A DNA stretch of 44,838 nucleotides from Bacillota bacterium (lineage in GTDB: Bacteria; Bacillota; Clostridia; Acetivibrionales; DUMC01). The position numbers were made by a program, and so were the translations under genes. Position 1 is the first letter of the stretch; every line of letters begins with the position of its first letter. Below the pieces are notes generated by a model. It did not search any database. It saw only the letters and a list, made by a program, of their open reading frames with translations, and was not told the origin of the DNA. Shown in pieces: positions 68 to 44,535 of the stretch. Location of the stretch: assembly GCA_013314855.1 (NCBI GenBank), contig JABUEW010000021.1:1-44838 (forward strand), written 5' to 3'.

Positions 68-246
68 GACTTGATTACCTACCTCCCCCAAGTCTACTAT
101 ACAATACTAATCTTGTACGTGTCCAACTCGGTTTTGCGAAAATATTTTTTTGCTACTCTCTATAACTCTTGTTTTCTCTTTCTTTTAAATTCGTGCTTCA
201 TCTCTGTGAAATATTAAGTTAAGTTGGATTTAGCGAGGTGTGATGT

Positions 247-2838
247 ATGAATAACAATATATGGCAGACAACTCCTATTAAATGGGATAGTATTAAAGAA
301 AATGAGCTTTGCAAGAAGTCATATTCCATATTATTAAAATGGTTGCCTTATGCGGAAAAACAGTACCAGGAGTGGGATATAAGAAAAAATTGCGGACACT
401 TTTTTGGAGGTTCCTACTGGTATGGACTGGAAACAGCAGGTACAGCCCTTGTATATGCAGTAATTGCAAGGCTCGGAGAATATGATGAAAAAATTACAGG
501 TATTCCGAGATCACAGGTACTAAAAAGAGCTGTTAGTGCCATACGATACCTGGGCTTTACTCATGATACCGGACCTGATGACTGTGTAAGAGTTCAAAGC
601 GCCAATCCTCACTGCAGTTTCAGAAAATGGGGAGGCAAGGGAGACGGATTTTTCCAGGCGAGTCAGCATGGAGTTCCAATTTCACAATTTGGACTTGCAG
701 CTTGGATATTATGGGATAAGTTAGATGATGAAACCCGTATTTTGGTACAAAATGTTTTATCAAATTATGCAGACAGTTGGTCGAAAGAAAAACCGAGAAA
801 TGGTACATACTTTGATACCCAATGTGAGGAAAATGGGTGGACAGCTCTTGGTATAGCTATAGCAGCTGTAATGTTTTCCAAACATCAAAATGCAGAATTA
901 TGGAGACAAAAGGCAATTGAGTGGCTATTATGTGCGTGTACCACATATCTTGACAGGTTTAATAGAAGCAATTATCTTGGCAAACCCTTGGCAGGAGGCT
1001 GGATTAACAGCATCACGATACATCCGGATTATACAACTGAGAATCATGGATTCGTGCACCCGAATTACCTCAGTGCCGGATTGATTTTTGGAGGACATAT
1101 TTCTTTGTTTAACCTGCTTGCAGGACAGGAAATTGTACCCAACCCCTTTCTGCATTGGGATGATATTTATGAAAAGGCTTTGAAAGTATGGACAATGTAT
1201 GATGGCCTGATAACACCCATACAGGGTCAAGACTGGTGGTATAACCAACAAGCCGGTACAGCCGTAGTACATGCATATTTGAATATATTTAAAAAGAATG
1301 AGGATGCTGCTTCTCTTGAAAGAATGGCATTGGAAAGCGTTGCAAAAATTCAGGACAGCAACAAAAACGGCTGTTTATATGAAGCCAGGGGTGAAGAATG
1401 CAGGATTACTGAATTCCAGACAGCAAAAGATATGGAACACCAGGCAGCCTGTGGTATTGCGAAAATATATCTTTTACATTGTTTTGGAGGGGAAGGTAAA
1501 ATTCCAACCAGCAAAGAAGAATTAAATCTGAAATTAAAAGGAGTATACAACTATCCTTACGGCAACAGCATTATTCACAGGACCCAAAATAGTTTCAGCT
1601 GCTTTAGCTGGAGAAATTGTGTAATGGCTCTTACCCTCCCTCAAAAAGGTATGTGGACTGTTACAGCTATGATTTCCAGTTATACGGGTGTAGTAAAGTT
1701 GAGAGACAACAAACAAAATACTGAATCAACTTGCATCCTGAATACTGAAATTAACGATGAACAGGGCAATAAATCAAACAAGATATCAAATAAGAACTCA
1801 AATAACAGCTTGAATTTTGGAATAACGAATGAAGATGTAATAAGAAATGTGATAGATGAGAACATAATACCCAGAGAGGACGGTTTTGCAGTAACTGCAA
1901 GGATTGAAAGGGGACGAAGGGAATTATTACAGGATGTTTCATTTGTTGCCCTTCCGGACGGAAACACTGTTTATATTGAGAAATTTACGGCTGCTGAAGA
2001 TTGTATGGTAGAAGAAATGAAAACGGGTACCATTGGCATAAGAAATGAGCATTATGGCTATATGCCTAATGTTGCAAAAGGATATAGGAATGTTTACCTG
2101 GAAGGAGATAAAATTGAAACTTTTGAAGGGTACTATGGAAAAGATCCGGATAGGATAGTTGAATGGCAGAATGTGTCTTATATTAATATTGATAATGAAA
2201 TCGGATATATAATATTTAATAACAATTCCGTCGAATATGTAAACAAGCATCAATATCCCAAATGGAAAGGAATTGAGGATATTCTTACTCTTAATAAATG
2301 CAGAGAACCGTTCTCTTTATCAAAAGGCAGTTCATTAGAGCCATTCATTCTTATTTCTTTACCTAATTGTACTTATAAAGAAACTGCTGAATTGGCTAAA
2401 AATGTTACTGTATTAAATGTAGATGACCATAATGTGAGTATGTTGATTTTTAATAATTTCCTTATTTATTGCAACCGTGAATACAGTAATATTTCGGCTG
2501 CGGGATATATTGATCTGAGTACAAATAGCAGTATAAATAACAACAGCAACTCAATATATCTTTTCAAAGGGCATAACAGAATTGAAAAAAACAAATATAT
2601 CTGGAATGGAGATATTAGCAAAAGAGAATCAGGCTGGCATCAGTCTGGCTTTGTTTTGCATGACCTGAAAAATACAGATATTTCAGATATTTCACTAGAT
2701 ATTGATATAGCTGCAAACAACAGGGCAGTATTTTGCAACTCTTCGGATAAAGAAATTAGTTTCAAAGTAGAAGCCGTTTGTTCGGGAGTTATATATGATA
2801 TAGTACTGAAGCCCCAACAGTATAGAATATGCACATGA
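247..2838 (+). CDS. Large protein of alpha/alpha-toroid type, polysaccharide-lyase-like, function unknown
   Basis: An 863-residue protein without signal peptide or membrane segments, so probably cytoplasmic. The start at 247 follows GAGGTG at 235-240. The first ~420 residues are rich in Trp, Tyr and amphipathic helices and hold an ENHGFVHPNY motif near residues 265-274; that composition and an Asn-His pair are reminiscent of (alpha/alpha) toroid glycan lyases and heparinase II/III-like proteins. The C-terminal half is predicted-strand rich, as in the beta-sandwich domains that follow such toroids, and has an Asn/Ser-rich stretch around residues 500-525. Toroid plus beta-sandwich order fits a lyase or hydrolase acting on imported oligosaccharides, but I do not recognise a named family and no catalytic residue can be assigned. 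Confidence 0.6.
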   Translation: MNNNIWQTTPIKWDSIKENELCKKSYSILLKWLPYAEKQYQEWDIRKNCGHFFGGSYWYGLETAGTALVYAVIARLGEYDEKITGIPRSQVLKRAVSAIRYLGFTHDTGPDDCVRVQSANPHCSFRKWGGKGDGFFQASQHGVPISQFGLAAWILWDKLDDETRILVQNVLSNYADSWSKEKPRNGTYFDTQCEENGWTALGIAIAAVMFSKHQNAELWRQKAIEWLLCACTTYLDRFNRSNYLGKPLAGGWINSITIHPDYTTENHGFVHPNYLSAGLIFGGHISLFNLLAGQEIVPNPFLHWDDIYEKALKVWTMYDGLITPIQGQDWWYNQQAGTAVVHAYLNIFKKNEDAASLERMALESVAKIQDSNKNGCLYEARGEECRITEFQTAKDMEHQAACGIAKIYLLHCFGGEGKIPTSKEELNLKLKGVYNYPYGNSIIHRTQNSFSCFSWRNCVMALTLPQKGMWTVTAMISSYTGVVKLRDNKQNTESTCILNTEINDEQGNKSNKISNKNSNNSLNFGITNEDVIRNVIDENIIPREDGFAVTARIERGRRELLQDVSFVALPDGNTVYIEKFTAAEDCMVEEMKTGTIGIRNEHYGYMPNVAKGYRNVYLEGDKIETFEGYYGKDPDRIVEWQNVSYINIDNEIGYIIFNNNSVEYVNKHQYPKWKGIEDILTLNKCREPFSLSKGSSLEPFILISLPNCTYKETAELAKNVTVLNVDDHNVSMLIFNNFLIYCNREYSNISAAGYIDLSTNSSINNNSNSIYLFKGHNRIEKNKYIWNGDISKRESGWHQSGFVLHDLKNTDISDISLDIDIAANNRAVFCNSSDKEISFKVEAVCSGVIYDIVLKPQQYRICT

Positions 2839-3149
2839 ATGTCTTTAGCGAAGGCACATATTAGCTATAGCTTCCTTGTCCCTACAGTCTCAAAAAAGGT
2901 GATTTTTTCATTCCCAAAGAGAGTGACTGCTAACAGGACCATTTCTTAAAACCGTGGTCTATGCCATATGCTTAAGTATATTGTACAACATTTTAAGTTA
3001 TGTTTCATCAATTTTTGTGCCGGATAATGCCCGGCGTGGTGGTTAATTTGAAAATCTACACAATCCATCACTTGAATTTTACTTGAACTCAGGTAGAGGG
3101 AGGTATATAATCATATTATACGATAGCTATGTATTGGAGGTAAATTATT
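2839..3149. other. Intergenic region, 311 bases, no gene seen
   Basis: No coding frame with a ribosome site was found. It contains a short GC hairpin (GCCGG/CCGGC, 3019-3035) without a following T-run and a weak A/T-rich dyad near 2895-2911. The end carries GGAGG (3136-3140) for the truncated gene that follows. No recognisable riboswitch. Confidence 0.5.
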
Positions 3150-3380
3150 GTGCTGTCAGTTCGGGAAAACTATATTAGAAATGCAAGATTTGCCAACCCT
3201 GAATGGATACCTTCAAGTGTCCACATCAGTAATGCTTCATGGGACCAATTGAGATATGATCTCGAAGAAGTGGCTTTAGAGCATCCGGATTTTTTTCCGT
3301 ATGTTAAAGAAGGATGGAGGGATTACGATAATTTCGACTTCGGAAATGCCTATACAAAGGGAAAACCAATTATATGTTGA
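3150..3380 (+). pseudogene. N-terminal fragment of a URO-D/methyltransferase-family protein
   Basis: A 76-residue frame opened by GTG after GGAGG. Segments such as NARFANPEWIPSSVHISNAS and DFFPYVKEGWRDYDNFDFG resemble the extreme N terminus of uroporphyrinogen decarboxylase-like proteins of anaerobes (family normally ~350-400 residues), then a stop follows. The rest of the gene is missing: the next 100 bases lead directly into the alcohol dehydrogenase gene. The retained start and ribosome site suggest a 3' deletion. The family assignment rests on remembered similarity and is moderately sure; it could also be expressed as a small peptide. Confidence 0.55.
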
Positions 3381-3480
3381 AAATAATGCCAGAACACTAT
3401 ATAATAGGGCAATAAGGATGGGCAGATACAAATGAGGTATTGAGTGAATATTATTGTTATGTTTGAAGGAGATGGTTTTT

Positions 3481-4650
3481 ATGGTAAACTTTGATTTTAT
3501 AAGCCCAACCAAAATTATCTTTGGGAAAGGTACCGAGAACCGTGTGGGAGAGGAAACTGCAAAATACGGCAAAAAGGTTCTCTTGCACTACGGAGGGGGC
3601 AGCATAAAGAAAACCGGCCTTTATGATAAGGTGATACAATCTCTCAAACAAGCAGGTATTGACTTTATAGAACTTTCAGGAGTAAAACCTAACCCCAGGT
3701 TAAGTCTTGTAAAGGAAGGTATTAAAATCTGCAGGGAGAATGACATTGATTTTATCCTTGCAGTTGGAGGAGGAAGTGCAATTGACTCGGCAAAGGCTAT
3801 AGGTGTAGGAGTACCATATAACGGGGATGTATGGGACTTTTACTCAGGAAAGGCAGAACCAAAGGAATCTCTTCCTGTAGGTGTTGTCCTCACCATAGCG
3901 GCAGCGGGAAGTGAAGCTAGTAAAAGTTCTGTTATTACTAATGAAGACGGATGGTACAAGAGAGGGCTTAATGTTGATATTATAAGGCCAAAATTTGCTA
4001 TAATGAATCCGGAACTTACCTTTACATTACCGACTTATCAGACTGCGTGCGGGGCTGCTGATATTATGGCACATATAATGGAGAGGTATTTTACAAACAC
4101 GCCCAATGTAGAACTTACAGATAGGCTATGCGAAGCAGCGCTGAAAACTGTAATTAACAATGCGCCTATAGCTTTAGAAGAACCTGATAATTATAATGCA
4201 AGAGCGGAAATAATGTGGACAGGAACTCTTGCTCATAATGACCTTTTAGGAACCGGTAGGATTGGAGACTGGACTTCTCACCAAATTGAACATGAATTGA
4301 GTGGAATATATGACATTGCTCATGGTGCAGGACTTGCTATTGTTTTCCCTGCATGGATGAAATATGTTTATAAAAATAACATAAACAGGTTTGCACAGTT
4401 TGCAACAAGGGTGTGGGATGTTGAATATTGTTTTGAATCTCCCGAAAGAACGGCATTAGAGGGAATAAATAGGTTGGAGAAGTTTTTTAAAGAGATAGGA
4501 CTTCCGACTACGCTTAAAGGTGCGGGTATACCCGGCGACAGGCTGGAAGAAATGGCTGAAAAATGTAAAATGACAAACGGTAATACTGTAGGTAAGTTTG
4601 TGGAACTGACAAGAAAAGATGTTTTAAATATCCTGAAACTTGCACTGTAA
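3481..4650 (+). CDS. Iron-containing alcohol dehydrogenase (butanol-dehydrogenase-like)
   Basis: A 389-residue group III (Fe-type) alcohol dehydrogenase, expected to interconvert aldehydes and primary alcohols with NAD(P)H in the cytoplasm during fermentation. The dinucleotide loop GGGSAIDSAKAIG lies near residues 96-108, and the metal-binding region includes ADIMAHIMERYF, SHQIEHELSG and IAHGAGLAIVFPAWMKY with the expected Asp/His ligands. Length and order match the BdhA/YqhD branch. An upstream in-frame Met at 3454 exists, but AAGGAG at 3466-3471 sits nine bases before 3481, so 3481 is preferred. Substrate is not predictable. The glycosidase gene follows after 55 bases. Confidence 0.9.
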   Translation: MVNFDFISPTKIIFGKGTENRVGEETAKYGKKVLLHYGGGSIKKTGLYDKVIQSLKQAGIDFIELSGVKPNPRLSLVKEGIKICRENDIDFILAVGGGSAIDSAKAIGVGVPYNGDVWDFYSGKAEPKESLPVGVVLTIAAAGSEASKSSVITNEDGWYKRGLNVDIIRPKFAIMNPELTFTLPTYQTACGAADIMAHIMERYFTNTPNVELTDRLCEAALKTVINNAPIALEEPDNYNARAEIMWTGTLAHNDLLGTGRIGDWTSHQIEHELSGIYDIAHGAGLAIVFPAWMKYVYKNNINRFAQFATRVWDVEYCFESPERTALEGINRLEKFFKEIGLPTTLKGAGIPGDRLEEMAEKCKMTNGNTVGKFVELTRKDVLNILKLAL

Positions 4651-4705
4651 AGATATTGAAGTTACAATAATTTTAAATAACAGGAGTAGGGGGAACAGGT
4701 GTATT

Positions 4706-6475
4706 ATGTCAGGGAAAAGGTTGTCAACAGGGAGCATACCAACAGTAAAAGCAACAGCAGGTAAAATAAAGACAGCAGGAAAATCCATAGCAGTTGCTTT
4801 TCTTGTATTGGCAGTTTTATTCCCCTGCCGGACTTCCGGTTCATCCCTGCCCTCTGAAGACACCGGGACAGGAGCGGACGCCGGTGGCTTTAAATTTAAT
4901 ATGTCGTATATACATTACAACGATAAGGATTCTTACATAAAATATGTAGAAAATGCAAAGGGAGCAATCAGCGAGGTTTCTCCAAATTATTTTAATTTAA
5001 GCCAAACCGGTTCTTTACTCATTTCTTCCACAATAGATGAGAATTTCATTAGTGAAATGCATAAAAGGGGAATTAAAGTTGTACCTTTTCTCAGCAACCA
5101 ATGGGACAGAACTTCGGGAAGACTTGCTTTGAGTAAAAGACATAAGTTATCGGATGAGATTGCCGCTGTGATAGAAAAGCATAACCTGGATGGAATTAAT
5201 ATTGACATTGAAAACCTTACCGAAAAAGACAGGGATAGATACGCTGATTTTGTGAGGTTGTTAAGAAGCAAGCTTCCGAGAGATAAAACTATTGCTGTGG
5301 CTGTTGCTGCCAATCCAAAGGGTATAACAACCGGATGGTATGGCTCCTACGATTATGAGGCTCTGGCAAAGTACAGTGATTATTTAATGGTTATGGCTTA
5401 TGATGAGCATTATGCAGGTGGGCCTTCAGGGCCTGTGGCAAGTATAGACTTTGTTGAAAATTCTATTAAATACGCAGTGGAAAGAGTGCCTAAAGAAAAG
5501 ATTGTATTGGGAATACCTTTTTATGGCAGAATATGGAGGAGTGGCGGAGGAGTAAGCGGACAGGGTTTAAGCCTTAAAATGGTGGAAAGCCTTGTCGCAA
5601 GCTATAGAGGGAGTGTTATTTTTAGTAATGCCTATCTTTCTCCAAAGGCTACCATCACTATAAAGTCCAGTGATAAAAAACCTGTTATAAACGGAAGTGA
5701 ATTGCGTCCGGGCACATATACAATATGGTACGAAAATGAGGAATCTATAAAACACAAGTTAAGCCTTGTTAAGAAGTATGGCCTCAAAGGCACTGGAAGC
5801 TGGAGCCTGGGGCAGGAAACGCCAGATATATGGAATTATTATAACCTCTGGCTTAACGGGTACTATTATACTGATTGCGAGGGACACTGGGCTCAAAACC
5901 CTATAATATTTGTATTAAACAACGGATGGATAGAAGCAAAAGACAAAACCGGATTTGCACCTGATAAACCCCTTACCCGGGCAGAGGCTGCTGTAGCTAT
6001 TGTACGGGCTCTTCAACTTGAAGAATATAAGGAAAAAGGAAATGAAGGTAAAATTGTTTTTAATGATATATCCGGACATTGGGCCAAAAAAGAAATTGAA
6101 ATTGCCATACAGCATAGAATAGTTATGGGAAAGGGGGATGGCACCTTTTCTCCTGATGAGCCGGTGACGCGGGAGGAAATGTCTGTTATGTTGGACAGAG
6201 CGCTTATAGCAAGCAGGGGACTGGCCTTAAACTTAAGCCGGGGAATTAATTCCAATACAACAAATGCTAATAGCAATATTTCTCATAACAATACAAGTAT
6301 AGAGATATGTTATAAGGATGTAAGCAGGGAAGTATGCGAATGGTCATATGACTCAATAGTAAGGATGTCACAACTGGGGATATTTACCGGCTCGACTGAT
6401 GGAAAGTTCAACCCTAAAGAAAAAATTAGCAGGGCTGAAATGTCGGCATTGCTATATAGAATATGGGGAAAGTAA
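4706..6475 (+). CDS. Secreted GH18 glycosidase with three S-layer homology domains (copy 1)
   Basis: A 589-residue exported protein: basic N terminus, hydrophobic signal segment (~residues 25-45), a glycoside hydrolase family 18 TIM barrel (~50-385), and three SLH repeats (~390-589). The catalytic signature DGINIDIEN is present with the proton-donor Glu near residue 169. The barrel resembles the YaaH/chitinase-like branch acting on peptidoglycan or chitin-type GlcNAc polymers; the SLH repeats should anchor it to the cell-wall polymer, so it probably acts at the cell surface. The start at 4706 follows a GGGGGAA tract; earlier in-frame starts give an unlikely N terminus. It is a close tandem paralogue of the next gene. 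Confidence 0.88.
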   Translation: MSGKRLSTGSIPTVKATAGKIKTAGKSIAVAFLVLAVLFPCRTSGSSLPSEDTGTGADAGGFKFNMSYIHYNDKDSYIKYVENAKGAISEVSPNYFNLSQTGSLLISSTIDENFISEMHKRGIKVVPFLSNQWDRTSGRLALSKRHKLSDEIAAVIEKHNLDGINIDIENLTEKDRDRYADFVRLLRSKLPRDKTIAVAVAANPKGITTGWYGSYDYEALAKYSDYLMVMAYDEHYAGGPSGPVASIDFVENSIKYAVERVPKEKIVLGIPFYGRIWRSGGGVSGQGLSLKMVESLVASYRGSVIFSNAYLSPKATITIKSSDKKPVINGSELRPGTYTIWYENEESIKHKLSLVKKYGLKGTGSWSLGQETPDIWNYYNLWLNGYYYTDCEGHWAQNPIIFVLNNGWIEAKDKTGFAPDKPLTRAEAAVAIVRALQLEEYKEKGNEGKIVFNDISGHWAKKEIEIAIQHRIVMGKGDGTFSPDEPVTREEMSVMLDRALIASRGLALNLSRGINSNTTNANSNISHNNTSIEICYKDVSREVCEWSYDSIVRMSQLGIFTGSTDGKFNPKEKISRAEMSALLYRIWGK

Positions 6476-6477
6476 AT

Positions 6478-6510
6478 AAAATATAATGAAAATATAATGA
6501 AAATATAATG
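6478..6510 (+). repeat. Three tandem 11-base repeats, each with TATAAT
   Basis: The unit AAAATATAATG occurs three times in a row between the two GH18 genes. Each copy contains a perfect -10 hexamer, so it may be a slippage product in or near a promoter, but no well-placed -35 box is evident. Confidence 0.7.
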
Positions 6511-6614
6511 TGACTAAGGGAAAAAAATCAGGAAATTTGTAAGTTTACATAAATTATGTGTTGAATTTTCTGACTGGATTCTGTATCCTAAATAATGAGG
6601 GGGGTACAGAAGCT

Positions 6615-8324
6615 ATGTTTGGAAAGAGGTTAATTACATCATTACTAACTTTAATATTAATTGCATTTATTATTGTTTACCCATATTCAGCACGATCATT
6701 TGCAAATGCTTTAGATTATAAGTTTAATATGTCATATATATACTTTGAAGATAAAGCCAATTATCTGGCCTGTATAGAAAACACAAAGGGCTCAATAAAC
6801 GAAATATCCCCCGGTTATTTTGATCTTAATACGGACGGGAGTCTAAAGCTTTCTTCCACAATAGATACGAATTTTATCAGTAAAATGCATAAAAAGGGTA
6901 TCAGGGTTGTCCCTTTCCTGAGCAATCACTGGGACAGGTCTTTGGGAAGGATGGCGTTGAGCAAAAGGGACAAGCTGGCTGATCAGATTATTAATGCTAT
7001 CATAGAATATAATCTGGATGGTGTTAATGTAGACCTGGAAAACTTGAATGAAGAAGACAGGGATAATTATACTGATTTTGTAAAGTTATTAAGTCAAAAG
7101 CTTCCTGAAGGAAAGATTCTTGCAGTGGCTGTTGCCTGCAACCCCAAAGGATTGACAAAAGGGTGGCACGGTTCTTACGATTATGCTGCATTAGGCAAAT
7201 ACAGCGATTATTTAATGGTTATGGCTTATGATGAACACTACAGCGGCGGTAGTGCAGGACCTGTAGCCGGTATTAAATTTGTTGAGGATTCAATAAAATA
7301 TGCCCTGGAAAGAGTTCCTAAGGAGAAGATAGTTTTGGGAATACCGTTTTTCGGTCGTATATGGAAAAACGGCGGTGGAATAAGTGGACAGGGTGCAAGC
7401 TTAAATGATATTGAAATGCTGATTGCAAAATACAGGGGACAGGTTAGTTTTGACTATGCATCTTTTTCCCCAAGGGCGGTTATCACTATAAAATCCAGTG
7501 ATGAAAAACCGTATATATATGGTAAAAAATTAGATGCGGGGACATATACAATATGGTATGAGAATGAGCAGTCGATAAAACAAAAGCTAAGCCTGGTTAA
7601 AAAATATGGCCTGAAAGGTACAGGAAGCTGGAGCCTTGGACAGGAGACGCCTAACACATGGGATTATTACAGCCTTTGGCTTAATGGGCATTATTATACG
7701 GATGCCCAGGGTCATTGGGCTTTAAAATCTATAATTTTTGTTGCCAGTAAGGGCTGGATGATAGGAAATGGTAGCTCAAGCTTCGCTCCTGATAAGCCGC
7801 TTACCCGTGCAGAGGCTGCAGTTGTATTGGTGCGCGCCTTGGGATTGAAAGGGGAAGCAATGGAAACGGAAGTGAGCAGTAGCGAAGAAGTTGCCAGTAG
7901 CCAAAATGATGAGAATATGGAGAAAGAAGAACCCATTATTTTTACTGATATATCGGAACACTGGGCAAAAAATGAAATTGAAATTGCTGCACAACATAGA
8001 ATTGTGCTCGGTAGAGGTGACGGGACTTTTGGCCCCGACCAGCCCATAACAAGGGAAGAATTGGCTGTTTTGGTAAACAGGGTACTGTTATCTGACAGGA
8101 ATACTCTTGCCAGCAGGGGTAACAGTATTAATGATAATAATAATAGTATTAGTATTGTTTATAAAGATGTAAGTGAGGATACCTGTACCTGGTCATACAA
8201 TTCAATAATAGCCATGACAAGTATGGGAGTTATTACCGGAACTCCTGATGGAAGGTTTCTTCCAAAAGAAAAGGCCAGTCGTGCAGAAATGGCAACTTTG
8301 CTGTACAGGGTATGGGGGTATTGA
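6615..8324 (+). CDS. Secreted GH18 glycosidase with three S-layer homology domains (copy 2)
   Basis: A 569-residue paralogue of the preceding protein with the same order: signal peptide (hydrophobic residues ~7-28, likely cleavage after SARSFA), GH18 barrel with DGVNVDLEN (catalytic Glu near residue 142), and three C-terminal SLH repeats. Long blocks are shared with copy 1, for example the LMVMAYDEHY and GIPFFGRIW regions, pointing to a tandem duplication that has since diverged mainly at the signal peptide and in the linkers between SLH units; copy 2 has a Glu/Ser-rich insert between SLH 1 and 2. The start at 6615 follows GAGGGGGGT. Expected role: cell-surface hydrolysis of GlcNAc-containing polymers. 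Confidence 0.88.
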   Translation: MFGKRLITSLLTLILIAFIIVYPYSARSFANALDYKFNMSYIYFEDKANYLACIENTKGSINEISPGYFDLNTDGSLKLSSTIDTNFISKMHKKGIRVVPFLSNHWDRSLGRMALSKRDKLADQIINAIIEYNLDGVNVDLENLNEEDRDNYTDFVKLLSQKLPEGKILAVAVACNPKGLTKGWHGSYDYAALGKYSDYLMVMAYDEHYSGGSAGPVAGIKFVEDSIKYALERVPKEKIVLGIPFFGRIWKNGGGISGQGASLNDIEMLIAKYRGQVSFDYASFSPRAVITIKSSDEKPYIYGKKLDAGTYTIWYENEQSIKQKLSLVKKYGLKGTGSWSLGQETPNTWDYYSLWLNGHYYTDAQGHWALKSIIFVASKGWMIGNGSSSFAPDKPLTRAEAAVVLVRALGLKGEAMETEVSSSEEVASSQNDENMEKEEPIIFTDISEHWAKNEIEIAAQHRIVLGRGDGTFGPDQPITREELAVLVNRVLLSDRNTLASRGNSINDNNNSISIVYKDVSEDTCTWSYNSIIAMTSMGVITGTPDGRFLPKEKASRAEMATLLYRVWGY

Positions 8325-19148: not shown

Positions 19149-19253
19149 GCTTTTAAATTATGCATGATATACAGACGGGAGTATAGGTATTTAACTAATA
19201 CGCAACTAAAAGCTTTTATTTGCTGAAGTATGAATGAAAACTACAATTTATTA

Positions 19254-19294
19254 TTGACATATGCCCATAAAAATAATAGAATATATTATGGGCA
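19254..19294 (+). promoter_or_regulatory. Promoter with embedded palindrome, NifX/Mrp operon
   Basis: TTGACA (19254-19259), 17-base spacer, TAGAAT (19277-19282). TGCCCATAA (19262-19270) and TTATGGGCA (19286-19294) form perfect 9-bp arms, one inside the spacer and one just after the -10. The same layout recurs at 35393-35449. Confidence 0.8.
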
Positions 19295-19357
19295 AAAGCT
19301 AATAATATTTACAGGTAACAATGATGACTACTATATAGTTAAAGGGGTGTAGATTTT

Positions 19358-35358: not shown

Positions 35359-35392
35359 TACAAAATCCGGGTTTTAGAAAAAATTAAAAAAA

Positions 35393-35449
35393 ATTATTGA
35401 CATATGCCCATAATTATATTAGAATAAATTATGGGCATATGTCAATAAT
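35393..35449. promoter_or_regulatory. Promoter inside a 23-bp-arm palindrome, DUF5320 gene
   Basis: Arms at 35393-35415 and 35427-35449 are perfect inverted repeats with an 11-base centre. The left arm includes TTGACA (35397-35402), and TAGAAT (35420-35425) is 17 bases downstream. The core TATGCCCATAA is the same as at 19260-19270. The right arm holds a mirror-image TTGACA. Confidence 0.85.
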
Positions 35450-35522
35450 AAATATACAAAACAGTTAAAGGTACATCTAATATAACTGGTGAAGATAAAA
35501 AAGGAAAAGGAGGTGAAAATAA

Positions 35523-40773: not shown

Positions 40774-41415
40774 ATGTTAGAGGCAGTGATTTTTGACATG
40801 GATGGGGTCATAATAGATAGCGAGCCCATATACCATGAAGTTGAGATGGGAATGTTTAAAGAATTTGGCCTTGATTTGACCGATAAACATAGACATATGT
40901 ATGCTGGGGTGAGGACAGTGGACATGTGGGTGGAATTAAAAGAGAAATACGATATTCCGCTGTCAATAGAAGAATTGGTAAAAATAGAAGCAGAAAGAGT
41001 AAGGGCATGCCTTAAGGCAAAAAATGCAATTGAGCCTGTTTGTGGTATTAGAGAATTGTTGGAGAAATTACATAAAAATAACATTAAGATTGCCTTGGCT
41101 TCTTCAAGCAGTATGGCGGATATAGAAATAGTATTAAACGAAACAGGATTGAAAGAGTACTTTTCGGTTATCGTAAGCGGGGACCATGTTGAAAGAGGGA
41201 AACCGGCCCCCGATATATTCTTGCATGCTGTATCCAAGCTTGGTGCAGAACCTGAAAATTGCATTGTTATTGAAGATGCAAGCAGTGGAGTTAAAGCTGC
41301 AAAGGCTGCCCGTTTGAAGTGCATAGCATACAGGAATCCTAATTCAGGTAATCAGGACCTGTCTGAAGCGGATATGGTTGTGGAAAGCTTTTATGATGTT
41401 ATTTCCATGCTTTAA
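40774..41415 (+). CDS. HAD-superfamily phosphatase, beta-phosphoglucomutase-like
   Basis: A 213-residue HAD hydrolase: nucleophile loop VIFDMDGVIIDSEPIYHE, motif II Ser in ALASSSSMADIE, Lys in ERGKPAPDIF and acidic motif IV VIEDASSGVKAAKAA. The cap domain type suits small sugar or nucleotide phosphates; substrate unknown. Its last ~100 bases plus 54 bases downstream are duplicated at 42316-42473. Confidence 0.9.
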   Translation: MLEAVIFDMDGVIIDSEPIYHEVEMGMFKEFGLDLTDKHRHMYAGVRTVDMWVELKEKYDIPLSIEELVKIEAERVRACLKAKNAIEPVCGIRELLEKLHKNNIKIALASSSSMADIEIVLNETGLKEYFSVIVSGDHVERGKPAPDIFLHAVSKLGAEPENCIVIEDASSGVKAAKAARLKCIAYRNPNSGNQDLSEADMVVESFYDVISML

Positions 41416-41469
41416 TTGCTAAACATTAAATATACAGGTCTTTGCGGTTAAACAATGCAATTCCTCCAG
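41312..41469 (+). repeat. Segmental direct repeat, copy A (HAD 3' end)
   Basis: About 158 bases with high identity to 42316-42473, offset 1004 bases. Copy A is the authentic end of the HAD gene. Confidence 0.88.
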
Positions 41470-41623
41470 GGTACGTTAGATTTTGAATATAGGATAACTA
41501 CTTGCCTTTTCTATTTGTAGTGGATAAGCATTTTTTGGAGGAATGTGCATATCATGGCAAAACTTTAAAAATTTATTTTAAATTTAATAGTCCATTTTGA
41601 TTTTCACCAAATATTAAATATGG

Positions 41624-41629
41624 TATAAT
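41624..41629 (+). promoter_or_regulatory. Extended -10 for the retropepsin-like pair
   Basis: TGGTATAAT gives an extended -10, 33 bases before the start codon. No good -35. Confidence 0.5.
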
Positions 41630-41662
41630 AGCATCAGACAATAATAAAGGTGGTGAATTTAT

Positions 41663-41908
41663 ATGAAGTGGGAAGAAGTAAGACAAGCATACCCGCATCA
41701 ATGGGTTAAGCTTAAAGTTTTAAAAAGTCATCTAGAAGATAACAAAGAGTATATTGAAGAAATGGAAGTAATAAAAACAATCGACAGCGATTTGGAAGCT
41801 GGAAGAGAGCTTGGAAAATGCAAAGAGAGCGAGGTTGTTTACCATACTTTCCATGAAGAAATATATCTTGAGATAAGAAATATATTTGGATTCAGGGTGG
41901 CAAAATAG
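41663..41908 (+). CDS. Small acidic protein paired with a retropepsin-like protease
   Basis: An 81-residue, Glu/Lys-rich soluble protein (MKWEEVRQAYPHQWVKLKVL at the start, FHEEIYLEIRNIFG near the end). I do not recognise a named family. The stop codon directly abuts the ATG of the protease-like gene, so the two are translated together. AAAGGTGGTGAA precedes the start. Confidence 0.75.
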   Translation: MKWEEVRQAYPHQWVKLKVLKSHLEDNKEYIEEMEVIKTIDSDLEAGRELGKCKESEVVYHTFHEEIYLEIRNIFGFRVAK

Positions 41909-42292
41909 ATGAATGTATACTTGTTTGACAGGCTTATCTGTACTGATATAACAGTTACTTTTAATGGTAAGTCCAAGACTTTAAAAAATGTTGTAGTAGA
42001 TACAGGCGCAGCGCAATCAATCATCAATTCCATTTTTGTTGCTGATTTGGAAATTGCACCAAGCTTCAAGGATAAGATGGTTAAAACCAGAGGAATTGGT
42101 GGAGATTTGGAGTTTTTTTATAGGACCGTAGATGAACTGAAAATCGGGGACTTCACTTTTAAAAACTATGAAATCGACTTTGGAGAAATTGATCCCAAAG
42201 GCGAAATATCAGGTTTAATCGGCCTGGACTTACTAAATGAACTTCGTGCTGTTATAGATGTAGAAATTCCTATAATCTACAATAAAACTTAA
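41909..42292 (+). CDS. Retropepsin-like aspartic protease
   Basis: A 127-residue protein with one pepsin-like lobe, so it would have to dimerise as retroviral proteases do. The catalytic VVVDTGAAQSII is near residues 29-40, the flap-like TRGIGGDL near 60-67, and the psi-loop ISGLIGLDLLNEL near 97-109. No signal peptide. Its substrate is unknown; the preceding small protein may be a partner. Confidence 0.85.
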   Translation: MNVYLFDRLICTDITVTFNGKSKTLKNVVVDTGAAQSIINSIFVADLEIAPSFKDKMVKTRGIGGDLEFFYRTVDELKIGDFTFKNYEIDFGEIDPKGEISGLIGLDLLNELRAVIDVEIPIIYNKT

Positions 42293-42315
42293 AATTATAG
42301 AATCCATTTTAACGT

Positions 42316-42473
42316 GTTTCAAGTGCATAGCATACACGAATCCTAATTTAGGTAATCAGGACCTGTCTGAAGCGGATATGGTTGTGGAAAGCTTTTATGA
42401 CGTTATTTCCATGCTTTAATTTCTAAGCATTATATATACAGGTCTTTGCGGTTAAACAATACAATTCCCCCAT
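42316..42473 (+). repeat. Segmental direct repeat, copy B (orphan HAD tail)
   Basis: Non-functional copy of the HAD gene's last ~100 bases and 3' flank. It contains the C-terminal codons (QDLSEADMVVESFYDVISML) without the rest of the gene. Confidence 0.88.
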
Positions 42474-42536
42474 GATACATAACAACTAAGTGTTTTATTT
42501 TTATCTCAATATTCCGGCAATATTCTGAACTATCCA

Positions 42537-42623: not shown

Positions 42624-42983
42624 ATGGCAAGTAATGTGAAAATAAAAAATAAAGACATAATTAATATCCTCACAGAGGTAAAAGAAAGCATGTTCAAGAT
42701 ATTTGGTGTTAAACTTAGAAAGGTTATTTTATTTGGATCTTATGCCAGAAACGAAGCCGATAAAGAATCTGACGTGGATATTCTACTCTTAATTGACGAT
42801 GAACAAGAGAATATTAAACGCTATCATGATTCTATTGTTGATACTATGGTGAAATTATCTTTAAAATATGGACTTGTAGTGTCAATAACAGAACAGGAGT
42901 ACAAACAATATATGAAGTATATTACATTTGTACCTTTCTATGCGAATGTAAATAATGAGGGAGTGGAATTCTATGTTAGATAA
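42624..42983 (+). CDS. MNT-type nucleotidyltransferase (HEPN partner)
   Basis: A 119-residue minimal nucleotidyltransferase with an intact GSX10DXD site (GSYARNEADKESDVDILLL, near residue 42). In known HEPN/MNT modules the MNT protein acts as antitoxin by modifying or binding the HEPN toxin. CGGAGG precedes the ATG. It overlaps the HEPN gene by 11 bases. Confidence 0.88.
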   Translation: MASNVKIKNKDIINILTEVKESMFKIFGVKLRKVILFGSYARNEADKESDVDILLLIDDEQENIKRYHDSIVDTMVKLSLKYGLVVSITEQEYKQYMKYITFVPFYANVNNEGVEFYVR

Positions 42984-43365
42984 TCAAAATGACCTAAGTA
43001 AGTACAGATTAGAAAAATCCAAGGAGGATTTGCTTAGTTCAAAATTATTATTCGAAAATGGTTTATACAAACAATCGGTAAATCGTTCATATTATTCTAT
43101 ATTTCATGCAACAAGAGCATTATTAGCCTTGGATAAATTTGATTCTAAAAAGCACTCAGGAATAATTGCATATTTTAATCAGAAATATATTGCGACTGGG
43201 AAAATTGAAATAGAGTTTTCCAAGATACTTATGAGTGCACAAAAAATCAGGAATAGTAGTGACTACGATGAGTTTTATATAGTAAGTATAAAAGATGCTG
43301 AGAATCAAATTAATAATGCAACAAAATTTATAGATAGAATTGAAAAGTTTCTAACACAGACATAA
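42973..43365 (+). CDS. HEPN-domain protein (putative RNase toxin)
   Basis: A 130-residue all-helical HEPN protein. The conserved helix NRSYYSIFHATRALLAL contains an R-x6-H spacing, compatible with the HEPN ribonuclease signature. Together with the upstream MNT gene it looks like a complete toxin-antitoxin or defence module. The start at 42973 follows GAGGGAG. Confidence 0.85.
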   Translation: MLDNQNDLSKYRLEKSKEDLLSSKLLFENGLYKQSVNRSYYSIFHATRALLALDKFDSKKHSGIIAYFNQKYIATGKIEIEFSKILMSAQKIRNSSDYDEFYIVSIKDAENQINNATKFIDRIEKFLTQT

Positions 43366-43777
43366 CAGCATTGTTACTTCAAGTAAAATTTTTCGACCTG
43401 GGTAATAGCTTTCATCTAAAAAGCATAGGTTACACCTTACAAATTATCTTCTCAAGGCTTAATTTTGGATTCATTTGTATATACCACTTTCACAATATTG
43501 AGAATTCAATTGCTATTCCGAATTACCTCGATTACAATCTCGATTGCTGCGATTGCTGGTTGCTACGGTTCTACGGGCGCATTTTCTTTTTATGAAGAAA
43601 TAAATACCAATTACTTTAAAAATCCTCAATTTCGGGCATTTCGAGATTTTGTGAAATTTAGTGTAAGTTGATAAACTGTTTTATAAACATACAACTTGAA
43701 AGGTATAAGCAAATAGAAATATATTGGTTGTTTGATTATCGCTATTATATATGCAAAACATTTTAGCTATATACAAA
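43366..43777. other. Intergenic region with a MITE-end copy
   Basis: No convincing gene. Two overlapping short frames lack ribosome sites. GGGCGCATTTTC at 43575-43586 and the following 20 bases (to 43606) match the right end of the 23162 element. Confidence 0.5.
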
Positions 43778-43806
43778 TTGACAAATATAGATAATTGTAA
43801 TATAAT
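43778..43806 (+). promoter_or_regulatory. Consensus promoter of the Phd/PIN operon
   Basis: TTGACA (43778-43783), 17 bases, TATAAT (43801-43806), 42 bases before the antitoxin start. Confidence 0.88.
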
Positions 43807-43847
43807 ATGTCATATAGATGATATACAAACAAAAGGTGGTGAAGTAA

Positions 43848-44138
43848 ATGAAAATTAATTCTACCGAACTGCAAAACAACTTCGGGAAATATCTTCAATT
43901 GGCCGAAACCCAAAGCATATATATTGAAAAGAAGGGCAGCGACAGTATTTTCAAGCTTGAAAAGGTAGAAAGGAAAGAAATGCTTGGTAAAATACTGGAT
44001 AGTTTATATGGATGCTTGAGGGGAACCGGGCTTGAAAATGTCAATTCAGAAGAGATTATATATCAGAGAGTAAGTGAAAAACTTAATCCGAGCAAACAGG
44101 TGATGAAAAATGGTCAAGAAAAGAAAAATACTCGTTGA
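43848..44138 (+). CDS. Phd/YefM-like antitoxin
   Basis: A 96-residue small protein: the N-terminal MKINSTELQNNFGKYLQLAE and IYIEKKGSDS form the DNA-binding Phd fold; the C-terminal tail is charged and likely disordered, as in toxin-binding antitoxins. AAAGGTGGTG precedes the start. It overlaps the PIN gene by 29 bases and probably represses the strong promoter in front of it. Confidence 0.85.
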   Translation: MKINSTELQNNFGKYLQLAETQSIYIEKKGSDSIFKLEKVERKEMLGKILDSLYGCLRGTGLENVNSEEIIYQRVSEKLNPSKQVMKNGQEKKNTR

Positions 44139-44535
44139 TACCAATATAATTCTGGATTTATTATTGGCAAGACAGCCCTTTGCCGAAGAGGCCAGGGACA
44201 TATTCTTAAAAGCTGCAAATGAAGAAATAGAAATTTATGTTACCAGTTGCAGTATAAATACGCTTATTTATTTTATGGAAAAGACTATTGGTTATGAATT
44301 GACAAGAGAAATCATAAACAATTTTTTGCAAATAGCAAAAGGCATAGATATAACCATAAATGACATTCAAAAAGCATTTAATAATACGGCAATAACTGAT
44401 ACGGAAGATGCTATACAGATGCAGGGAGCTATTAAAGCAGGAATGGATTTAATATTAACGAGGGATTGCAATTTCCTTAAAATAGATACAATGGATATAC
44501 CTGTCCTATCACCGGCTGATTATTTAAAGCATTGA
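44110..44535 (+). CDS. PIN-domain ribonuclease toxin (VapC-like)
   Basis: A 141-residue PIN nuclease. Acidic metal ligands: Asp in LVDTNIILDLLL, Glu in EEARDIF, Asp in TDTEDAIQMQGA and Asp in ILTRDCNF. Pairing with a Phd-type antitoxin is a common VapBC variant. Likely cuts RNA, target unknown. Confidence 0.88.
   Translation: MVKKRKILVDTNIILDLLLARQPFAEEARDIFLKAANEEIEIYVTSCSINTLIYFMEKTIGYELTREIINNFLQIAKGIDITINDIQKAFNNTAITDTEDAIQMQGAIKAGMDLILTRDCNFLKIDTMDIPVLSPADYLKH

Follow-up and report, generated by a model that had tools for sequence, protein, structure and literature searches.

How a gene comes to have two 3′ ends, and what the DNA between them had to do with it, is the question raised by a HAD phosphatase gene in the stretch analysed here, a 44,838-nucleotide contig (JABUEW010000021.1, assembly GCA_013314855.1; hereafter the window) from a Clostridia bacterium of the order Acetivibrionales. 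The tail of this gene recurs downstream, on the far side of two small genes. An original prediction, made from the letters of the sequence, proposed that these two genes form a cassette whose arrival duplicated the HAD 3′ end and which could leave again by recombination between the copies. We compared the locus with relatives of its gene pair, and with the ways in which such a bracket could arise.

A duplicated gene tail brackets two small genes

The HAD gene (40774..41415, + strand) is intact and encodes a 213-aa HAD-IA phosphatase of the beta-phosphoglucomutase-like subfamily (HAD_2, 1.3e-37; TIGR02009, 155.4 bits with a cutoff of 153.35). Its last ~34 codons, its stop and 59 bp beyond make up the first copy (41312..41474, +) of an ungapped 163-nt direct repeat, and the second copy (42316..42478, +), offset by 1004 nt start to start, is an orphan HAD 3′ end in decay. 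The copies are identical at 152 of 163 positions (93%), and the longest unbroken identity read off the alignment is 51 bp. The flanking repeat of the original prediction is a real direct repeat, slightly longer than first described (163 rather than 158 bp, ending at 42478 rather than 42473). A chance repeat is ruled out by the E-value of 8.7e-56 in a flank-against-flank blastn comparison, and an assembly artefact by the 7% divergence, which is too high for a single sequence placed twice by the assembler. A single dispersed repeat element is ruled out as well, the whole 4.43-Mb assembly holding the repeat at two places only (2 matches).

Between the copies lie 841 bp (41475-42315), which begin with an AT-rich leader of 188 bp at 25.5% GC (41475..41662, +) upstream of the module. 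Gene A (41663..41908, +) follows, then gene B (41909..42292, +), whose ATG stands directly behind the A stop, and a spacer of 23 bp (42293..42315, +) separates the B stop from copy 2. The cassette has 32.3% GC, compared with 37.0 ± 3.1 for windows of the same size. A promoter-like match (10/12) is found in the leader at 41601-41629, at a frequency not above that in shuffled sequences. We found no terminator in the window repeat and no recombinase inside the window cassette.

Several other features of the window were noted. Directly behind copy 2, at 42624-43365, is a Nucleotidyltransferase/HEPN pair whose nucleotidyltransferase matches PADLOC PDC-S09 (7.4e-25) and, weakly, MntA. Further on, 43848-44535 contains a PIN-domain gene and a small gene that has no Pfam match but looks Phd-like by eye, and the stretch 43766-44525 has 81% DNA identity to one in the genus mate G001; because the counterpart sits in another gene neighbourhood, the Phd-like/PIN stretch seems to be mobile too. 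Two GH18 chitinase-like genes that carry SLH domains lie side by side at 4640-8324; at ~67% DNA identity, they are tandem paralogues. Two distant upstream regions (19237-19354 and 35380-35496) have 118 bp in common at 72%, and the palindromic TATGCCCATAA/TTATGGGCATA motif within them would suit control by a single regulator.

The bracketed genes resemble a phage defence candidate

Gene A encodes an 81-aa protein matching PADLOC model PDC-M08A (7.5e-25, positions 1-83 of 86) and phrog_21859, and gene B a 127-aa protein matching PDC-M08B (1.6e-38, positions 1-125 of 128) and phrog_21241. With both models matched nearly full length by adjacent genes in the expected order, the pair is by sequence of the PDC-M08 type. 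PADLOC uses the prefix PDC for "phage defence candidate" (PMC11514479); PDC-M08 is a candidate name only, and its models carry nothing about insertion mode. Among open-licence papers, surveyed by title, start of abstract and term counts, we found none that names PDC-M08 or treats such a pair in defence.

The B protein also matches the Pfam family Asp_protease_2 (2.3e-12), so that an 81-residue protein and a single-lobe aspartic protease, as predicted, do lie between the repeats, in open reading frames of 81 and 127 codons. A single-chain structure model of B (pLDDT 88) matches HIV-type proteases and Rickettsia APRc (PDB 5c9f_A; E 3.1e-6, TMq 0.66). The DTG motif occupies residues 31-33, and across 34 aligned B proteins T and G are invariant while D is kept in at least 90%. 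By modelled fold and by motif, B is a single-lobe protease of the retropepsin type. These are the two features that it has in common with Rickettsia APRc (5c9f; PMC4140852); window B differs in being encoded by a mobile gene that is read directly after the gene for a small partner of its own. In a second B of the window's own genome (L147:2198-2536, G000:C93), NTG replaces the catalytic DTG, and this is perhaps an inactive copy. For A, we found no convincing Pfam family (52 members, E ≤ 1; best 0.0092), no NCBIfam family and no PDB fold match at E ≤ 0.001 (model pLDDT 77).

The module has a patchy distribution

Members of the A family turned up in 16 of the 58 genomes from the window's order, and a single genome may contain as many as 6; the corresponding counts are 16 of 391 genomes drawn from the class (E ≤ 1e-8) and 54 of 194 drawn from the family of G096, a genome discussed below. 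We did not find the A family in the genus mate G001 (89% complete) or the family mate G002. The nearest relatives of the window pair, at 62-69% in B, belong to other families of the order, and a pattern scan for B in genome contigs matched 77 stretches, 2 of them relatives. The pair is also found on four plasmid and three phage records, C. difficile phage-plasmids among them; in phiCDIF1296T, a gene resembling Doc lies a few genes away. Patchy, multicopy occurrence is the pattern expected of a horizontally moving module, and given this spread, the relatives in other families and the phage-plasmid copies, we consider that the module moves horizontally, as far as sequence comparison can tell.

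Polarity of the copies in the window and at a parallel locus

The two HAD tails differ at 11 positions. Four of these lie in coding sequence, where 3 differences are non-synonymous (L to F, R to T and S to L in copy 2 relative to copy 1). The position of the S-to-L change is S in the aligned HAD homologues shown, apart from T in 2. Because three of the four coding differences change the residue, one of them at this S position, copy 2 looks like an unconstrained stump and copy 1 like the functional tail, though four coding sites suggest this weakly. We found no match to the window HAD gene in G001 (again at 89% completeness) or G002.

A second locus, L235 in genome G516, has the same layout as the window, yet belongs to a different family and involves a different target gene. 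Here it is a GGGtGRT gene (PF14057, 4.3e-199) whose 3′ tail is duplicated around an A-B cassette of 824 bp, the tail repeat spanning 307 columns at 96% identity and including a terminator hairpin (-28.4 kcal/mol, z -6.3). A leader of ~183 bp is followed by A, by B and, from the B stop onwards, by copy 2, all in the direction of the GGGtGRT gene. That this leader is native chromosomal DNA was considered and dropped, the aligned leader showing weak similarity.

In three of three congeners (G452, G484 and G503; loci of ~4.7 kb) there is one GGGtGRT tail and no A or B, so that at this locus, among the four congeneric genomes compared, the module is confined to the G516 lineage. Relatives with one repeat and no cassette, which the original prediction had proposed to look for, thus exist at L235, and the finding that would have spoken against it, both copies in all relatives with no empty site, is not what this locus presents. 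Over 226 shared positions the two L235 copies show 3 differences; each is a change seen in copy 2 alone, and two alter residues. Copy 1 differs from the congeners at 7, 7 and 19 positions and copy 2 at 10, 10 and 22. Since copy 2 amounts to copy 1 plus three private changes, the duplication took place within the G516 lineage.

These observations bear on two other ways of making the same bracket. Circular DNA bearing the module together with another strain's HAD tail, integrated by a single crossover, would yield the same product, with the 7% divergence then being original; an imported functional tail would not be expected to have three of four coding differences non-synonymous in copy 2, and at L235 copy 2 derives from copy 1. 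We give this reading hardly any credence. A plain tandem duplication running from the HAD tail through B, with the module already in place and the second leader-A-B later deleted, draws on a common kind of event, and it fits the proximity of the B end to copy 2 (0-37 bp in the window, at L235 and at L152, described below). Each locus would require two events, behind window copy 2 there is no trace of another leader, A or B, and the three congeners of L235 have no module altogether; we regard it as improbable. In the search for a leader copy behind window copy 2, the best match (E 0.007, 59 columns, 73%) turned out to be the promoter-like stretch before the next gene pair.

Other bracketed loci and an integration hotspot

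Brackets of more than one kind occur around module genes elsewhere. At L155 (G027), a solo A is flanked on one side by the 3′ end of an L,D-transpeptidase gene, intact there, and on the other by a decayed duplicate that has an in-frame stop and an 85-bp gap. A different cargo, an AAA_14/DUF4143 gene (L155:6766-8748), is bracketed by way of a 126-bp, 94% duplicate of this transpeptidase gene's 5′ end. At L152, a 404-bp, 95% gene-tail duplicate begins 37 bp behind B; because the duplicated gene belongs to a multicopy family there, this repeat may have another cause. Brackets at 70% identity at L158, L159 and L195 were counted at first and later discarded: judged by eye, they look like dispersed repeats, since translated pieces of them recur elsewhere in the same stretches; they also fall below the 85% criterion of the later counts.

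The locus L186 (G096) is of another kind. A core at L186:8624 lies in the 5′ part of a gene for an NMT1/ABC-binding protein, and three copies of a 328-bp 5′ segment, all starting at the core, form an array that holds two mini-inserts, one the A-B pair and the other encoding a DUF4351 protein. The same core is found elsewhere in repeated copies with other cargo (G433), in a split gene (G432), at an island of 22 kb that encodes two large serine recombinases (G430) and as a single copy (G435). The element end beside the core is common to different species, and the segment copies cluster by species with moderate support. On these comparisons L186 is an integration hotspot at which inserts accrete in tandem, and it gives the module a second route. 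NMT1-type hotspot loci were seen at L186:8624-12331 and at L217, L218, L222 and L224, with mini-inserts that lack an integrase.

Such a hotspot suggests a further explanation for the window, in which the repeats are the attL and attR sites of a small cis-mobilizable element, integrase-less and with the HAD 3′ end as its target; the HAD-adjoining tail would then be element-borne and the distal tail original. The L186 array, which is att-type and carries a PDC-M08 pair, and the serine recombinases of the G430 island lend it some weight, as does the existence of CIMEs, described in PMC5704250 as elements that have lost their genes for integration and transfer and retain attL and attR. The start of window copy 2 moreover appears to be flanked by CGTGT...ACACG, picked out by eye. 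The likeness to cis-mobilizable elements and tandem accretion as presented in PMC5704250 lies in direct-repeat flanks at a gene end, in the missing integrase and in the L186 copy within such an array. The window differs from them in presenting one event at HAD, too few to reveal a fixed core, and no integrase or other recombinase in its cassette, and the polarity at L235 is opposite, the gene-adjoining tail being nearer the congeners (7, 7 and 19 differences versus 10, 10 and 22), whereas an element-borne tail predicts the reverse. One 25-nt pattern from the HAD tail also gave 0 exact matches in viral contigs. In all, we judge the att explanation possible but rather unlikely for the window.

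How common is bracketing?

We counted a module as bracketed when it was flanked by a repeat of at least 100 bp and at least 85% identity with a gap of 200-2500, and took relocation of the modules as the null; all gap limits other than 2500 are exploratory. The discovery set comprised 61 module occurrences on 55 stretches (the window and 54 others), a duplicate edge match on L149 having been dropped, and the independent set 83 occurrences on 77 stretches from one family, leaving out four genomes of the first set. In the discovery set, with gaps of 200-4000, 4 of 61 modules were bracketed (null 1.08, p 0.014), or 3 of 60 when the window was excluded (null 1.06, p 0.08). The independent set, with the 2500 limit fixed beforehand, gave 1 of 83 (null 0.27, p 0.25); relaxing the limits, as an exploration, raised the count to 4 (p 0.022) and 8 (p 0.0005). 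Pooled without the window, at gaps up to 2500, 4 of 143 modules were bracketed where 0.95 were expected (p 0.006). An earlier sliding-window control pointed in the same direction as the relocation test.

A general rule that PDC-M08 is bracketed is rejected by the counts of 3/60 (p 0.08) and 1/83 (p 0.25). A recognisable bracket is a feature of a few per cent of modules, above random placement when the sets are pooled, and is not the rule. One of the four pooled brackets, that at L186, fits site-specific integration better. Because 139 of 144 modules have no bracket at gaps up to 2500, the bracketing mode of insertion may be occasional or quickly erased.

Proposed insertion and precedents

Our preferred explanation, which we hold to be probable, is that a mobile PDC-M08 pair was inserted behind the HAD gene and in doing so duplicated the recipient's own 163-bp tail. 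The A-B pair would have landed just behind the HAD 3′ end, in the direction of HAD, leaving the upstream gene whole and a useless second tail behind B, and the window would share this origin with L235. As no recombinase is seen in the cassette, the insertion may have proceeded without a dedicated one, with the duplication perhaps made by staggered breaks with fill-in or by repair-linked copying. The proposal that the arrival of the cassette duplicated the HAD 3′ end thus gains from the stump-like copy 2 in the window and from the parallel at L235, support that is mostly indirect. Loss of the cassette by recombination between the 163-bp copies, the other half of that proposal, is possible in principle.

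Insertion with long target duplication was reportedly put forward for restriction-modification systems by Nobusato et al. in 2000 (Gene 259:99). For such systems it is known, and for a retropepsin-type pair we found no report of it. In H. pylori, as described in PMC3031569 and PMC1643837, restriction-modification inserts are flanked by long direct duplications of the target that vary in length. The window resembles these descriptions in its small accessory insert, its long target duplication and the lack of a transposase, and L235 resembles them further in having relatives with an empty site. The window departs from the restriction-modification case, as presented there, in being a protease/partner pair in Clostridia, placed at the 3′ end of a gene that is left intact.

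Possible function of the pair and its significance

There is an asymmetry in how often each gene occurs without the other. A full A with a broken or absent B was found at 16 of 51 inner loci in the first set and at 30 of 78 in the second, and a full B without A at 2 of 51 and 0 of 78 respectively; the loci were collected by way of A, which biases this result. For this completeness count the second set numbers 82, neighbouring matches having been joined at 200 rather than 160 bp. A B-led search of 60 genomes returned B without A at G054:C10:23722 and G042:C1:870283, together with two 28-residue fragments. As a suggestion only, A could be antitoxin-like and B the effector, or the pair could be a defence unit that loses its protease first. 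On the preferred reading A would restrain or serve B, and B would be an effector protease.

A bolder hypothesis is that PDC-M08 is a selfish addiction pair, with B as toxin and A as its partner, which spreads as hardly more than its two genes, carrying no recombinase and inserting behind the ends of host genes in the manner of restriction-modification systems, with a long duplication of the target; we think this unlikely. Were it true, the duplication would spare the host gene and give the module a built-in means of excision or amplification. The question bears on how small defence or addiction modules move without transposases. If protease pairs do share the insertion mode of restriction-modification systems, the mechanism would be one of host repair or replication rather than one of the module, and past insertions could then be searched for by the gene-tail stumps they leave. 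As a defence or toxin pair built on a retropepsin, the window locus itself is a compact candidate.
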